From Pseudomonas sp. B6002 (lineage in GTDB: Bacteria > Pseudomonadota > Gammaproteobacteria > Pseudomonadales > Pseudomonadaceae): 64,000 nucleotides of DNA. The notes beneath the pieces are model-generated. The model was given only the letters and a program-made list of their open reading frames with translations, was not told the origin of the DNA and did not search any database. Location of the stretch: positions 166,188 through 230,187 of the forward strand of contig NZ_JACAOY010000027.1 in the NCBI RefSeq assembly GCF_013385985.1. Direction: 5' to 3'. The translations under genes and the position numbers were made by a program. Below are positions 40,642 through 45,638 of the stretch, piece after piece. The number at the start of each line of letters is the position of its first letter. Positions within the stretch are counted from its first letter, which is position 1.

Positions 40642-41910
40642 ATGAATAGTTTTGCGCAACCGCTCCAGAGCAATGCCCCGCTGATCAACCGCGACCGTTT
40701 GTGGCAATCGCTGATGGACCTGGCCCAGCTCGGTGCCACCGTCAAGGGCGGCGTGTGTCGCCTGGCCCTGACCGACCTGGACCGCCAGGCCCGTGACCTG
40801 TTCGTGCAGTGGTGCGAGGCGGCCGGGTGCAGCGTCACGGTCGACGCCATCGGCAATATCTTTGCGCGTCGTGCCGGGCGCAATCCCGCCCTGCCCCCGG
40901 TGATGACCGGCAGCCATATCGACACCCAGCCCACCGGCGGCAAGTTCGACGGCTGCTACGGGGTGATGGCCGGGCTGGAGGTGATCCGTACTCTCAACGA
41001 TTTGAACATCGAGACCGAAGCGCCGATTGAAGTGGTGGTGTGGACCAACGAAGAAGGCTCGCGCTTTCCGCCGTGCATGATGGGCTCCGGGGTATTTGCC
41101 GGTAAATTCGACTTGCAGGAAACCCTCGACAAACTCGACGACCAGGGCCTGTCAGTGGGTGCCGAATTGCAGCGCATCGGCTACGCTGGCACCCGCGCCG
41201 TGCCTGGCCATCCGGTGGGTGCGTATTTCGAAGCACACATCGAACAAGGCCCGGTGCTGGAAGACCAGGCCACTACCATCGGCGTGGTCATGGGCTGCCT
41301 GGGCCAGAAGTGGTTCGACCTGACCTTCACCGGCGTCGAAGCCCACGCCGGGCCGACACCGATGCACCTGCGCAAGGACGCTCTGGTGGGCGCCGCCGAG
41401 GTGGTCAGCGCGGTCAACCGCATCGCCCATCAACAGCAACCCCATGCCTGTGGCACGGTCGGTTGCCTGAGCCTGCACCCGGGTTCGCGTAACGTGATTC
41501 CCGGCCAGGTGCACATGACGATCGACCTGCGCCACCTGCACGCCGACAAGCTGCAAGCCATGGTCGATGAGGTGCGCGGCGTGATCGAAGCCACCGCCAA
41601 ACACCACGGCTTGAGCTTTGAGCTGACGCCGACGGCCGACTTTCCACCGCTGGACTTTGCCCCGGCGTGCGTCAACGCCGTGCGCGAAGGCGCCCAGGCC
41701 CTGGGCTTGAGCCACATGGACATCGTCAGTGGCGCCGGGCACGACGCGATTTTCGTTGCCGAACTGGGCCCGGCCGGGATGATCTTTGTGCCGTGCGAAG
41801 GCGGCATCAGCCATAACGAAATCGAAAACGCCGCGCCGGATGATCTGGCGGCGGGCTGCGCGGTGCTGCTGCGCGCCATGGTCAACGCAGCCCAGGGGGA
41901 TGTGGCATGA
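40642..41910 (+). CDS. M20-family amidohydrolase (N-carbamoyl-L-amino acid hydrolase/allantoate amidohydrolase type)
   Basis: A 422-residue metal-dependent amidohydrolase. The zinc ligands are in GSHIDTQPTGGKFDG, VVVWTNEEGSRFPP and the late SGAGHDAIFVA. The dimer-bridging His and the substrate Arg region (GSRNVIPGQVHMTIDLRH) are also present. Members hydrolyse N-carbamoyl amino acids, ureidopropionate or allantoate. No other hydantoinase or allantoinase gene lies in this window. The ATG at 40642 follows GGAG; the longer frame starts inside livF. It overlaps the amidase by 4 bp. Confidence 0.88.
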   Translation: MNSFAQPLQSNAPLINRDRLWQSLMDLAQLGATVKGGVCRLALTDLDRQARDLFVQWCEAAGCSVTVDAIGNIFARRAGRNPALPPVMTGSHIDTQPTGGKFDGCYGVMAGLEVIRTLNDLNIETEAPIEVVVWTNEEGSRFPPCMMGSGVFAGKFDLQETLDKLDDQGLSVGAELQRIGYAGTRAVPGHPVGAYFEAHIEQGPVLEDQATTIGVVMGCLGQKWFDLTFTGVEAHAGPTPMHLRKDALVGAAEVVSAVNRIAHQQQPHACGTVGCLSLHPGSRNVIPGQVHMTIDLRHLHADKLQAMVDEVRGVIEATAKHHGLSFELTPTADFPPLDFAPACVNAVREGAQALGLSHMDIVSGAGHDAIFVAELGPAGMIFVPCEGGISHNEIENAAPDDLAAGCAVLLRAMVNAAQGDVA

Positions 41911-43307
41911 GTGAGATCGGCCAACTGACGGCGGTGCAACTGCTGGCGCATTTTCGTGACAAGAGCCTGTCGCCGGTGGACGTCACCGAGGACGCGTTGC
42001 TGCGTATCGAACGCTACAACCCGGTGGTGAATGCCTACTGCCATGTCGACCCGGAGGGCGCACTGAACGCCGCACGCGCCTCGGAACAACGCTGGCTCAA
42101 GGGCCAGCCGTGCGGCGCGCTTGACGGTGTGCCCGCGTCGATCAAGGACCTGACCCTGACGGTCGGCATGCCCACCCGCAAAGGCTCACGCACCTCGTCC
42201 GCCGAAGGGCCGTGGGACGTGGACGCACCCTTCTCGGCCTTCATGCGCAAGGCCGGCGCGGTGCTGCTGGGCAAGACCACCACCCCGGAGTTTGGCTGGA
42301 AGGGCGTCACCGACAACCCGCTGTATGGCATCACCCGCAACCCGTGGGACACCCGCACCACCGCCGGCGGCTCCTCGGGCGGCGCAGGCGCGGCGGCGGC
42401 CTTGAACCTCGGCGTGCTGCACCAGGGCAGCGATGCGGGCGGTTCGATCCGGATTCCCTGCGCGTTTACCGGCACGTTCGGCATCAAGCCAACCTTCGGC
42501 TACGTGCCGCAATGGCCCGCCAGCTCCATGACGATCCTGTCGCACCTGGGGCCGATGACCCGTACCGTGGAGGACACGGTACTGATGCTGCAGACCGTCG
42601 CGCAACCCGACGCGCGGGATGGCCTGATCGGCGCGCCCAGAACCACGCCCTGGCTCACCCCGGGCACGGACCTCAAAGGCTTGCGCGTGGCCTACAGCCC
42701 CACGTTCGGTTATGTAGACGTCGACCCGCAGGTGGCCAGCGTCGTCGCCCGGGCCGTGCAGGGCCTGGTGCAACTGGGCGCCCACGTGGAAGAAATCGAC
42801 CCGGGTTTCAGCGACCCGCTGGAGGTGTTCAGCACCCTGTGGGCGGCCGGTGCCGCACGCCTCACCGGGCCCATGAACGAGGCGCAGAAACAGCTGCTCG
42901 ACCCCGGGTTGCTGAGCATCGCGCAACAGGGCGAACGCTTGAGCCTGGATCACTTCAACGCAGCCCTTGAAGCCCGCGCCGCGTTGGTGGCGCGCATGGC
43001 CGCGTTCCATGAGCACTACGACGTGCTGGTCTCGCCGATGATGCCGATCACCGCGTTCGAGGCCGGTCACAATGTACCGCCCGGTTCGGGCATGCAGGCC
43101 TGGATGGAGTGGACGCCGTTTACCTATCCCTTCAACCTGACCCAACAACCGGCCGCCTCGGTGCCGTGCGGTTTGGCAGCGAATGGCCTGCCGGTGGGCT
43201 TGCATGTGGTTGGCGCACGGTTTGCCGATGAGCAAGTGTTAAGGGTGTGCCAGGTGTATGCACAGGCATTCCCGACTGAGCACCTGGAAGCACCGCGAGC
43301 GCTCTAA
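41907..43307 (+). CDS. Amidase signature family amidase
   Basis: A 466-residue amidase. The Ser-cisSer-Lys triad is readable: Lys in VPASIKDLTLTVG, the glycine/serine stretch TTAGGSSGGAGAAAALNLG and the nucleophile Ser in GSDAGGSIRIPCAFTG. It hydrolyses a linear amide to acid and ammonia in the cytosol. Overlapping the carbamoyl-hydrolase gene, it likely acts on the same imported compound or its product. The substrate cannot be read. A perfect 9-bp hairpin follows at 43321. Confidence 0.9.
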   Translation: MSEIGQLTAVQLLAHFRDKSLSPVDVTEDALLRIERYNPVVNAYCHVDPEGALNAARASEQRWLKGQPCGALDGVPASIKDLTLTVGMPTRKGSRTSSAEGPWDVDAPFSAFMRKAGAVLLGKTTTPEFGWKGVTDNPLYGITRNPWDTRTTAGGSSGGAGAAAALNLGVLHQGSDAGGSIRIPCAFTGTFGIKPTFGYVPQWPASSMTILSHLGPMTRTVEDTVLMLQTVAQPDARDGLIGAPRTTPWLTPGTDLKGLRVAYSPTFGYVDVDPQVASVVARAVQGLVQLGAHVEEIDPGFSDPLEVFSTLWAAGAARLTGPMNEAQKQLLDPGLLSIAQQGERLSLDHFNAALEARAALVARMAAFHEHYDVLVSPMMPITAFEAGHNVPPGSGMQAWMEWTPFTYPFNLTQQPAASVPCGLAANGLPVGLHVVGARFADEQVLRVCQVYAQAFPTEHLEAPRAL

Positions 43308-43399: not shown

Positions 43400-43675
43400 A
43401 TGCTATTCACAAGGACCGTCCTGGTGAGCGCAATGCTCGCCCTCCTGCCGCCCCTGGCCCACGCTGCCAGCCTGGACCTCAGCTACGAAGCACCGCCGGT
43501 GGAGGCTGCGCCGGCCGAGCGCCCCGCCCAGAACAAAACCCTGTTCCCCGTGAAAACCCTGGCACCGCTGACCGTCGACTACAGCTGCAAGGGCCCGCAA
43601 TGCCAATACGAGACGGATATCGACCAGCTCCATGAAGACCAGACCACCCAACATTGGTCGATTGGTATTCAGTGA
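43400..43675 (+). CDS. Small exported protein of unknown function
   Basis: A 91-residue protein with a clear signal peptide (MLFTRTVLVSAMLALLPPLA, cleavage near AHA-AS). The mature part of about 65 residues is Pro/Ala-rich at first, then has a two-cysteine segment (DYSCKGPQC) and an acidic end. I do not recognise a domain. It ends 11 bp before the membrane nuclease-like gene and may be cotranscribed, so a periplasmic partner of that protein's loop is conceivable. The ATG at 43400 is chosen over a longer frame because it begins the signal sequence. Confidence 0.7.
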   Translation: MLFTRTVLVSAMLALLPPLAHAASLDLSYEAPPVEAAPAERPAQNKTLFPVKTLAPLTVDYSCKGPQCQYETDIDQLHEDQTTQHWSIGIQ

Positions 43676-43686
43676 GAACGACGTTT

Positions 43687-44733
43687 ATGACCCGCTGGTT
43701 CAAATCCCTTTGGCGCAGTGAACCCTCGCCGACCCTGGCGCAGGTGATCCTGAACACCCGGCGTTACAAGCGTTGGAATCGCCTGTCACTGGTGCTGCTC
43801 TTGGTGAGCACCGCCGTCACCTACCTGCTGACGATCAATGAGGTGTTCCAGCCTGCCGACCAAAGCAACCCTGCGGTCTACACTCTCATGACCTCCGATG
43901 AGTTCCACCAATACACCGACCCGCTGTTCGAGCGGCTAAAAGCCTACAACCGCGAGCCGAGCGACGAGCGACTGAATGCGCTGCCGAGCTTTTTCGTGCC
44001 CGACCGCGGACACTTGTGGGTGTACGTCAGCCTGAAGTTCCAATTGCTCCCGAAAGCTGAAAAAACCGACGGCACACTGCCGCACTATCGTTACGAGCCA
44101 GAAATAACGGTGCGCCCGGCATTGCCGGGGCTGCTCCTGTTTATTCTGGCCGAAACCATCTGGTTGCTGATGCTGGTCTACCTGAGTTTGAAAGACCCGG
44201 TGGCCATGCGCGATTTTGAAGACCGTGAGCTGGCGCGTTTTTTTGGCGACGAGCCGGATCAACCTGTGGCCTCGCCGGCCCCACTCGACACGGTCAGGCA
44301 CTTGATGCGGCACTTCCATCGTTTCTGCATTGCCCTGAACCATCGACATGATGGCCAGGCGGGGCTGTCGGTGAAGAACGAATATGATGTGCAGGATCTG
44401 CTGCGTGCGCTCCTGACAGTGCATATCCCCGACCTGCGGCCCGAGGAACCCGTACCCAGTTGTGCGGGCGCCTCGTCGCGTATGGATTTCCTGCTGCACG
44501 AGTCGCAGGTCGGCATCGAAGTGAAAATGACCCGTGCGGGGTTGAAGGACAAGCACCTGGGCGAGCAGCTGATCGTGGATATCGCCCGCTACGCGGAGCA
44601 CCCACGTTGCCGGCAATTGATCTGCTTCGTCTATGATCCGGGTTATCTGATTCGCAATCGTCAAGGCCTGCAGGAATACGTGGTGCGCCAGGGACACACC
44701 ATCGACGTCGAACTGATCTTTTCGCCTGCCTGA
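43687..44733 (+). CDS. Membrane-anchored PD-(D/E)XK nuclease-like protein
   Basis: A 348-residue protein. A basic N-terminus (RRYKRWNR) precedes helix 1 (about residues 33-50). A predicted periplasmic region of about 95 residues follows, then helix 2 (about 147-168) and a cytoplasmic C-terminal domain. That domain reads like a PD-(D/E)XK nuclease core: Glu232 in NEYDVQDLL, Asp267 in SSRMDFLL, then Glu278-Val-Lys280 in GIEVKMTRAG, then Gln294 in GEQLIVDIARY, and the strand LICFVYDPGYLIRN. All expected acidic and lysine residues are present. The role is unknown: DNA or RNA cleavage at the membrane, defence or nucleic acid turnover. The ATG at 43687 is preferred over a TTG inside the preceding gene. 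Confidence 0.72.
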   Translation: MTRWFKSLWRSEPSPTLAQVILNTRRYKRWNRLSLVLLLVSTAVTYLLTINEVFQPADQSNPAVYTLMTSDEFHQYTDPLFERLKAYNREPSDERLNALPSFFVPDRGHLWVYVSLKFQLLPKAEKTDGTLPHYRYEPEITVRPALPGLLLFILAETIWLLMLVYLSLKDPVAMRDFEDRELARFFGDEPDQPVASPAPLDTVRHLMRHFHRFCIALNHRHDGQAGLSVKNEYDVQDLLRALLTVHIPDLRPEEPVPSCAGASSRMDFLLHESQVGIEVKMTRAGLKDKHLGEQLIVDIARYAEHPRCRQLICFVYDPGYLIRNRQGLQEYVVRQGHTIDVELIFSPA

Positions 44734-44774: not shown

Positions 44775-45638
44775 ATGGACATCGAACTGGCACGCACTTT
44801 CCTCGAAATCACTCGCTGCGGCAGCCTGGCCGCGGCGGCCGAGAAGCTGCACGTCACCCAGACTGCGATCACCGCCAGGGTCAAGAACCTCGAAAGCCAG
44901 TTGGGCAGCACCTTGTTCGTGCGCAACCGCGCCGGGGCGCGCCTGACGCCGGATGGCGAGGCCTTTGTGGTGTACGCCAACCAGTTGTTGCAAACCTGGG
45001 AAGCGGCCAAACGCGACCTGCCGTTGCCGGATGGCTATCGCAACGTGCTCCATATCGGTGGCGAAGTCAGCCTGTGCAACCCGTTGATGCTGGGCTGGGC
45101 CCAGGCCCTGCGCGAACACATCCCCGGCCATGCCCTGCGCACCGAGGTGCGTGAAGGCGAATACCTGTTGCGCCAACTGGAACTGGGGGTACTCGACGCG
45201 GCGCTGGTGTTCCAGCCGCAATACTGGCCCGGTTTGCAGGTGGAGCAGGTGCTGGAAGAAAAACTGATCCTGGTGCAGTTGGTCAGCAAACCCGATCCCT
45301 ACGTGTATATCGACTGGGGCCCGGGGTTTCGCCAGCAACACGACACCGCTCTGCCCGACAAAGCCCGCGCCGCCCTGAGCTTCAACCTGGGGCCGCTGGC
45401 GTTGCAGTACATCCTGGAGAACGGCGGCGCCGGCTACTTCCGCACCCGTGTCGTGCAAAGCTACCTCGACAGCGGCGTGATGCAGCGGGTGCCCAAGGCG
45501 CCGGAGTTCAGTTTCCCCACGTACCTGGTGTATTCGCGGGCGCGGGATTCGGCGGTACTGCAACAGGCGCTGGAATTGCTGCGGGGAGTGGTCAAGGCGG
45601 AATCCGACTGGTCGCAGCGTTGGGATCCGTTGATTTGA
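44775..45638 (+). CDS. LysR-family transcriptional regulator
   Basis: A 287-residue regulator. The N-terminal winged helix (ELARTFLEITRCGSLAAAAE, LHVTQTAITARVKNLESQLG) is followed by an effector-binding domain from about residue 90. It resembles LysR proteins of the HexA/LrhA type in the segment VRNRAGARLTPDGEAF. Neighbouring genes are codirectional on both sides, so its target is not evident from divergence. Start ATG at 44775. Confidence 0.9.
   Translation: MDIELARTFLEITRCGSLAAAAEKLHVTQTAITARVKNLESQLGSTLFVRNRAGARLTPDGEAFVVYANQLLQTWEAAKRDLPLPDGYRNVLHIGGEVSLCNPLMLGWAQALREHIPGHALRTEVREGEYLLRQLELGVLDAALVFQPQYWPGLQVEQVLEEKLILVQLVSKPDPYVYIDWGPGFRQQHDTALPDKARAALSFNLGPLALQYILENGGAGYFRTRVVQSYLDSGVMQRVPKAPEFSFPTYLVYSRARDSAVLQQALELLRGVVKAESDWSQRWDPLI

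Follow-up and report, generated by a model that had tools for sequence, protein, structure and literature searches.

A predicted membrane-tethered PF18742 nuclease with a patchy distribution in Pseudomonas

SNIPE (PD-lambda-1) is described as a nuclease bound to the membrane, where it cuts the DNA of phages as they inject it; its anchor prevents self-damage, and conservation is highest in its nuclease domain, the N-terminal part being variable (PMC13190303). According to the same 2026 account, the nuclease distinguishes phage from host DNA by its position at the membrane (PMC13190303). The screen in which SNIPE was discovered lists a putative membrane-anchored DUF4041 protein (PMC9519451), and a 2026 review gives Zorya, Kiwa and SNIPE as DNA-targeting systems located at the membrane (PMC12904381). 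EcbAgaN, the closest characterised relative of the protein studied here, is a DNase of a defence system, the long-B Argonaute system BPAN. It cuts single-stranded and double-stranded DNA but not RNA in a Mn2+-dependent manner, breaks down plasmids as well as genomic DNA and has been suggested to cut methylated DNA (PMC10620215). In this study we analysed a stretch of 64,000 nucleotides from Pseudomonas sp. B6002 (assembly GCF_013385985.1, contig NZ_JACAOY010000027.1, positions 166,188 to 230,187 of the forward strand), hereafter called the window. It carries a gene for a 348-amino-acid (aa) protein that combines a nuclease domain homologous to EcbAgaN with a predicted membrane anchor, and we evaluated whether this protein could be a further membrane-tethered nuclease acting against invading DNA.

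Nuclease domain and predicted membrane topology

The preliminary description of the window, which was made from the sequence alone, had read a PD-(D/E)XK nuclease core from motifs in the C-terminal part of the 348-aa protein. In the Pfam scan of this protein the only family above the cut-off was PF18742 (DpnII-MboI), matched at residues 202-347 with an E value of 1.3e-44 and a score of 151.8 bits (cut-off 27), and the predicted PD-(D/E)XK assignment is therefore far above chance. The residues E232, D267, E278 and K280 were invariant in all 44 rows of the alignment. The motif residues had been read correctly; position 294 is Q in 26 rows and E in 18. EcbAgaN (PDB 23wq) was matched both by a profile of all 44 rows (E 1.7e-8) and by a profile of seven membrane members alone (E 1.1e-8). 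Its residues D298, E309 and K311 aligned to profile positions 265, 276 and 278, which correspond to D267, E278 and K280, as the profile numbering equals the protein numbering minus two. The D298A and E309A-K311A variants of EcbAgaN are reported to be inactive (PMC10620215). Considering this homology and the matching catalytic residues, the 348-aa protein should by default be expected to act as a nonspecific DNase.

The statement of the preliminary description that no named family could be recognised needs to be divided. The nuclease domain, as judged by the profile match, belongs to the known family PF18742, but no family spans the whole architecture, and the Pfam scan of the first 190 residues gave a best model with an E value of only 0.06. 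Among 80 relatives examined, 73 had no membrane helix, and the N-terminal part was shorter in most of them.

The hydropathy exceeded 1.6 in Kyte-Doolittle 19-residue windows starting at residues 32-36 and 144-151. Residues 1-32 contain 8 K/R and 1 D/E, and this excess of positive charge before helix 1 favours an orientation with the N-terminus inside, the loop outside and the C-terminus inside. AlphaFold2, run on 44 aligned sequences, gave a model with a mean predicted local distance difference test (pLDDT) score of 83.6 and a predicted template modelling score of 0.50. In this model the loop is predicted to be folded (block pLDDT 71-92), and the nuclease elements comprise strands 268-270 and 275-281, helix 288-303 and strand 310-316. 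Six residues (F54, N61, Y87, N88, P122 and Y134) were invariant in ten members. The protein is thus predicted to be a two-helix membrane protein with a periplasmic loop and a cytoplasmic nuclease domain. The features of the gene are as follows.

43687..44733, + strand: predicted membrane-tethered PF18742 (DpnII-MboI) nuclease, 348 aa
43783..43839, + strand: predicted membrane helix 1, residues 33-51 (hydropathy; AlphaFold2 helix 17-49)
43840..44121, + strand: predicted periplasmic loop, residues 52-145 (about 94 residues), helices followed by three strands (AlphaFold2), not assigned to a known family or fold
44122..44190, + strand: predicted membrane helix 2, residues 146-168 (hydropathy, AlphaFold2)
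44281..44730, + strand: predicted PD-(D/E)XK nuclease domain, residues 199-348 (Pfam, alignment, EcbAgaN match)
44380-44382, 44485-44487, 44518-44520 and 44524-44526, + strand: putative catalytic residues E232, D267, E278 and K280, respectively

Distribution of the architecture and its upstream genes

The architecture is rare and patchily distributed, being present in 11 of 399 Pseudomonas genomes. When the full protein was used as the query, matches were obtained in 8 of 200 genomes of the genus (seven with the full architecture and one with the nuclease domain alone), in 1 of 198 genomes of the family sample and in 3 of 369 genomes of the class sample, two of the latter having the nuclease domain only. 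We distinguished 13 full-length members, of which the window copy, L009, L010 and L160 were designated type A and L011, L012, L020, L158 and L159 type B; the remaining ones are L013, the pair L014 and L033, and L028. The insertion sites differ among the members; for example, the nuclease genes of L012, L158 and L159 adjoin tRNA-Leu(caa) and queA. The nuclease of the window is 72-74% identical to those of L009 and L010 overall, 66-67% in the membrane half and 82-84% in the nuclease half, and three flanking proteins are 93-97% identical to their counterparts in the same loci. The nuclease half was better conserved than the membrane half in 44 of 45 pairs among ten members. The GC content of the nuclease gene is 58.9%, compared with 63-67% in its neighbours.

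Relatives of the nuclease domain were also found in 210 plasmid records, none of them reaching 80% query coverage. On an IncX4 plasmid, one such relative has an Abi-family gene as its neighbour. The relatives on IncX4 and other plasmids (e.g., L166:4653-5450) are often annotated as 'malate dehydrogenase', which is contradicted by the nuclease-domain match, and a relative on a Klebsiella plasmid (L167:4659-5453) lies inside a filamentous-phage-like block with replication protein II/X, GspD and Zot-family annotations.

In the window, an amidase gene and a LysR-type regulator gene enclose two open reading frames (ORFs), 43400-43675 (91 aa) and 43687-44733 (348 aa), which are separated by 11 bp. 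Both ORFs, this gap and the two helices around a periplasmic domain had been described before, and hydropathy, charge and AlphaFold2 agree with that description. The nuclease start at 43687 is the same as in three close orthologues.

43400..43675, + strand: 91-aa protein with a hydrophobic, signal-like stretch at the N-terminus and with Cys63/Cys68, probably a resident neighbour gene and not a functional partner
41907..43307, + strand: flanking amidase (PF01425), left border of the variable site
44775..45638, + strand: flanking LysR-type regulator, right border of the variable site

The amidase-LysR site was surveyed in a sample of 100 genomes, in which the 30 best loci were matched by the LysR protein and inspected with flanks of 1.5 kb (shorter at contig ends). 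Neither the nuclease nor the 91-aa gene occurred within these flanks in the 29 loci other than the window. In nine of the 29 the amidase gene is directly beside the LysR gene, meaning that the site is empty there. The best LysR alignment in G119 (L139) spans residues 1-102 only, and the amidase match in G059 (L107) is split into two pieces within the flank; judging from these two genomes, the site seems to be rearrangement-prone.

The 91-aa ORF had been proposed to encode an exported partner of the nuclease with paired cysteines. Its two orthologues in L009 and L010 are 64-67% identical, with a ratio of nonsynonymous to synonymous substitution rates (dN/dS) of 0.21-0.23 against the window, indicating that it is a real gene, and both Cys63 and Cys68 are retained in them. 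The Pfam scan gave no match for this protein. It is conceivable that the exported protein serves as a periplasmic sensor or ligand controlling the nuclease in a two-gene system, since the gene is under purifying selection and lies directly upstream of the nuclease gene in all four type A loci, at a spacing of 11 bp, 24 bp and, in two cases, with a 4-bp overlap (in L160 the gene further upstream is not the amidase). This arrangement makes co-transcription of the two genes likely. However, a profile search detected the 91-aa gene in 11 of 200 genomes of the genus, ten of them at E < 1e-10, and the nuclease was matched in only three of these ten. Among the seven genomes without it, G176 and G119 carry the 91-aa gene between the amidase and LysR genes, as in the window, but gave no match to the nuclease at E ≤ 1. 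Conversely, none of the nine membrane nucleases outside type A has the 91-aa gene in the stretches examined, so that the nuclease occurs without it in 9 of 13 members. Five of these nine, the type B members, instead follow an unrelated 109-aa gene located 4-29 bp upstream, which is itself common (47 of 100 Pseudomonas genomes). Two of the four inspected 109-aa loci were beside queA and tRNA-Leu and lacked the nuclease. Consequently, the idea that the two genes are kept together as one system is not supported, the postulated sensing partnership is very unlikely, and the 91-aa protein is most likely an unrelated resident neighbour. Most simply, the nuclease gene would have its place behind small resident genes, whose transcripts it may share.

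Several further observations were made on the small genes. The 109-aa protein (L020:7629-7958, L162, L165) belongs to no Pfam family. In three genomes (L140-L142) an ORF of 206-250 aa that is extremely rich in methionine and cysteine is found no more than about 3 kb from a relative of the 91-aa gene. In G061 a 25-residue match to the nuclease domain (L144:1366-1428, 52% identity, E 0.06), perhaps a remnant or a chance match, lies about 5.6 kb from the 91-aa gene.

Genomic neighbourhoods and possible functions

The function that we favour, tentatively and with slightly less than even confidence, is that of a solitary DNase tethered to the inner membrane, which would cut incoming DNA there and thereby act against invaders, following a SNIPE-like plan. 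The two N-terminal helices would anchor the nuclease in the inner membrane with the small periplasmic domain between them, and the C-terminal PD-(D/E)XK domain would face the cytoplasm just beneath the membrane. The tether could keep a nonspecific cutter away from the chromosome and the nucleoid and let it meet phage (or other) DNA on entry, so that self and non-self would be told apart by place, as with SNIPE. The nuclease gene may ride on the transcript of the resident 91-aa gene. The computations show the identity of the domain, its catalytic residues, the predicted topology and how rare and patchily distributed the architecture is; DNase activity, a defence role, cutting at entry, activation, the target and the contacts of the periplasmic domain are inferred. 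A bolder version, which we regard as rather unlikely, is that this is a second, independently evolved membrane-tethered entry nuclease: a PF18742 DNase would have been freed from Argonaute control and brought to the inner membrane by a two-helix module, whose new periplasmic domain would sense the passage of the phage across the envelope and license cutting of the entering DNA, and its genes would be inserted downstream of small resident genes and expressed from the transcripts of these.

To examine the neighbourhoods of the relatives, 64 ORFs of 150 aa or more, taken from the flanks of seven membrane-nuclease loci, were scanned with PADLOC at a threshold of 1e-12. Altogether 37 PADLOC families were matched, and the 25 listed included LmuA, LmuB, FRG (PDC-S15), TIR (PDC-S35), an AriA/PtuA-type ATPase, mad3 and Old. 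Scans of single ORFs placed LmuA, LmuB and FRG in L033, TIR and Old in L013 and the ATPase in L011; a weaker match to PDC-S50 (4.2e-10) was found in L020. The earlier observation that no defence island is apparent therefore applies to the window but not to the neighbourhoods of several relatives.

A number of points weigh against a defensive nuclease that cuts at entry. The ORFs scanned singly, 20 of the 64, were picked by hand, as were ten of one set, and in the other four of the seven loci no match at 1e-12 was placed among the 25 of 37 families listed, the ORFs being only partly scanned singly. In the control scan of 52 ORFs of the window, mad3 was matched in three (best 1.9e-55), mad8 in one and ATPase-Toprim in one, in addition to the nuclease, and we took these matches to be generic. 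The defence-gene signal in the neighbourhoods is thus moderate, i.e., suggestive but not strong. The window copy is surrounded by metabolic genes, and among the 52 mechanically picked ORFs of the window PADLOC revealed no clear defence gene apart from the nuclease. The dN/dS of the nuclease gene (0.12-0.17) gives no sign of positive selection. Finally, EcbAgaN is described as acting by abortive infection once activated, and not by cutting at entry (PMC10620215).

The last point leads to the main rival explanation, an abortive-infection effector whose periplasmic domain would sense an envelope disturbance (phage attachment, injection or lysis), upon which the nuclease would degrade the cell's own DNA. 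We consider this unlikely. In the EcbAgaN system, activation of the Argonaute leads to the breakdown of genomic DNA and to cell death (PMC10620215), and the predicted folding of the periplasmic loop together with the six invariant residues would suit a sensor. At the same time, no activation mechanism is visible in the sequence and the membrane half is the less conserved one; sequence alone does not separate this explanation from cutting at entry. A non-defence function in the envelope, such as the processing of DNA acquired through competence or conjugation, or the scavenging of nucleotides, would be in line with the metabolic neighbours in the window, but the patchy presence in the genus, the variable insertion sites and the relatives on plasmids and near defence genes make it improbable.

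Site-specific cutting by an orphan or split type II restriction enzyme of the DpnII/MboI kind, with its methylase elsewhere in the genome, is considered very unlikely. The Pfam family does carry the DpnII/MboI name, and one match to a D12-class adenine methylase (83 bits) was found in the genome. However, that gene (L145:1399-2412) belongs to a different contig; to the eye its surroundings have a phage-like appearance, and the ORF next to it resembles a phage portal protein. No methylase is adjacent to the nuclease gene, its neighbours being the 91-aa gene, the amidase and LysR (genome-wide, the D12 family was the only methylase family searched). A membrane tether would be unusual for a type II restriction enzyme. 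Moreover, EcbAgaN cuts both plasmid and genomic DNA and is suggested to cut methylated DNA (PMC10620215).

If the favoured explanation, a tethered nuclease cutting at entry, is true, a nuclease of a different fold and with a periplasmic domain would imply that the SNIPE strategy arose more than once, and the protein would offer a simple test case of place alone licensing a nonspecific DNase. If it proves to be an abortive effector, sensor and effector would be combined in one protein across the membrane.

Comparison with known nuclease systems

The C-terminal domain of the 348-aa protein is matched by both the PF18742 DpnII-MboI family and the PADLOC model Aga_Helical-REase. A survey of HEPN domains describes the alpha-helical N-terminal domain of DpnII/MboI as fused to defence domains (PMC3710099). 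In the open-licence literature, which leaves out most papers of subscription journals, we found no description of the present architecture and no paper under the names 'DpnII-MboI' or 'PF18742'. Can2-type CRISPR ancillary nucleases, Avs4 and Shedu have sensing parts different from that of the 348-aa protein, and the profile searches of PDB gave no sequence match to any of them.

EcbAgaN shares with the 348-aa protein a homologous nuclease domain and the same essential D, E and K (PMC10620215). The two differ in that EcbAgaN acts together with an Argonaute and formed a soluble dimer when purified (PMC10620215), whereas the 348-aa protein is predicted to be membrane-tethered. A search for Piwi (PF02171) gave no match in the genome of the window, while the control search was positive in 1 of 14 genomes.

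As far as the published description of SNIPE extends, both SNIPE and the 348-aa protein are single proteins with an N-terminal anchor and a C-terminal cytoplasmic nuclease (predicted here), and in both the N-terminal part is less conserved than the nuclease. The nuclease of SNIPE is of the GIY-YIG type and is accompanied by DUF4041 and a single membrane helix (among SNIPE homologues, 59% are predicted to have one helix and 7% two; PMC13190303). For the 348-aa protein, in contrast, a PD-(D/E)XK domain and two helices enclosing a periplasmic domain are predicted, and Pfam scans detected neither GIY-YIG nor DUF4041 in it. Thus, the likeness to SNIPE is one of plan only, and the nuclease family is different.
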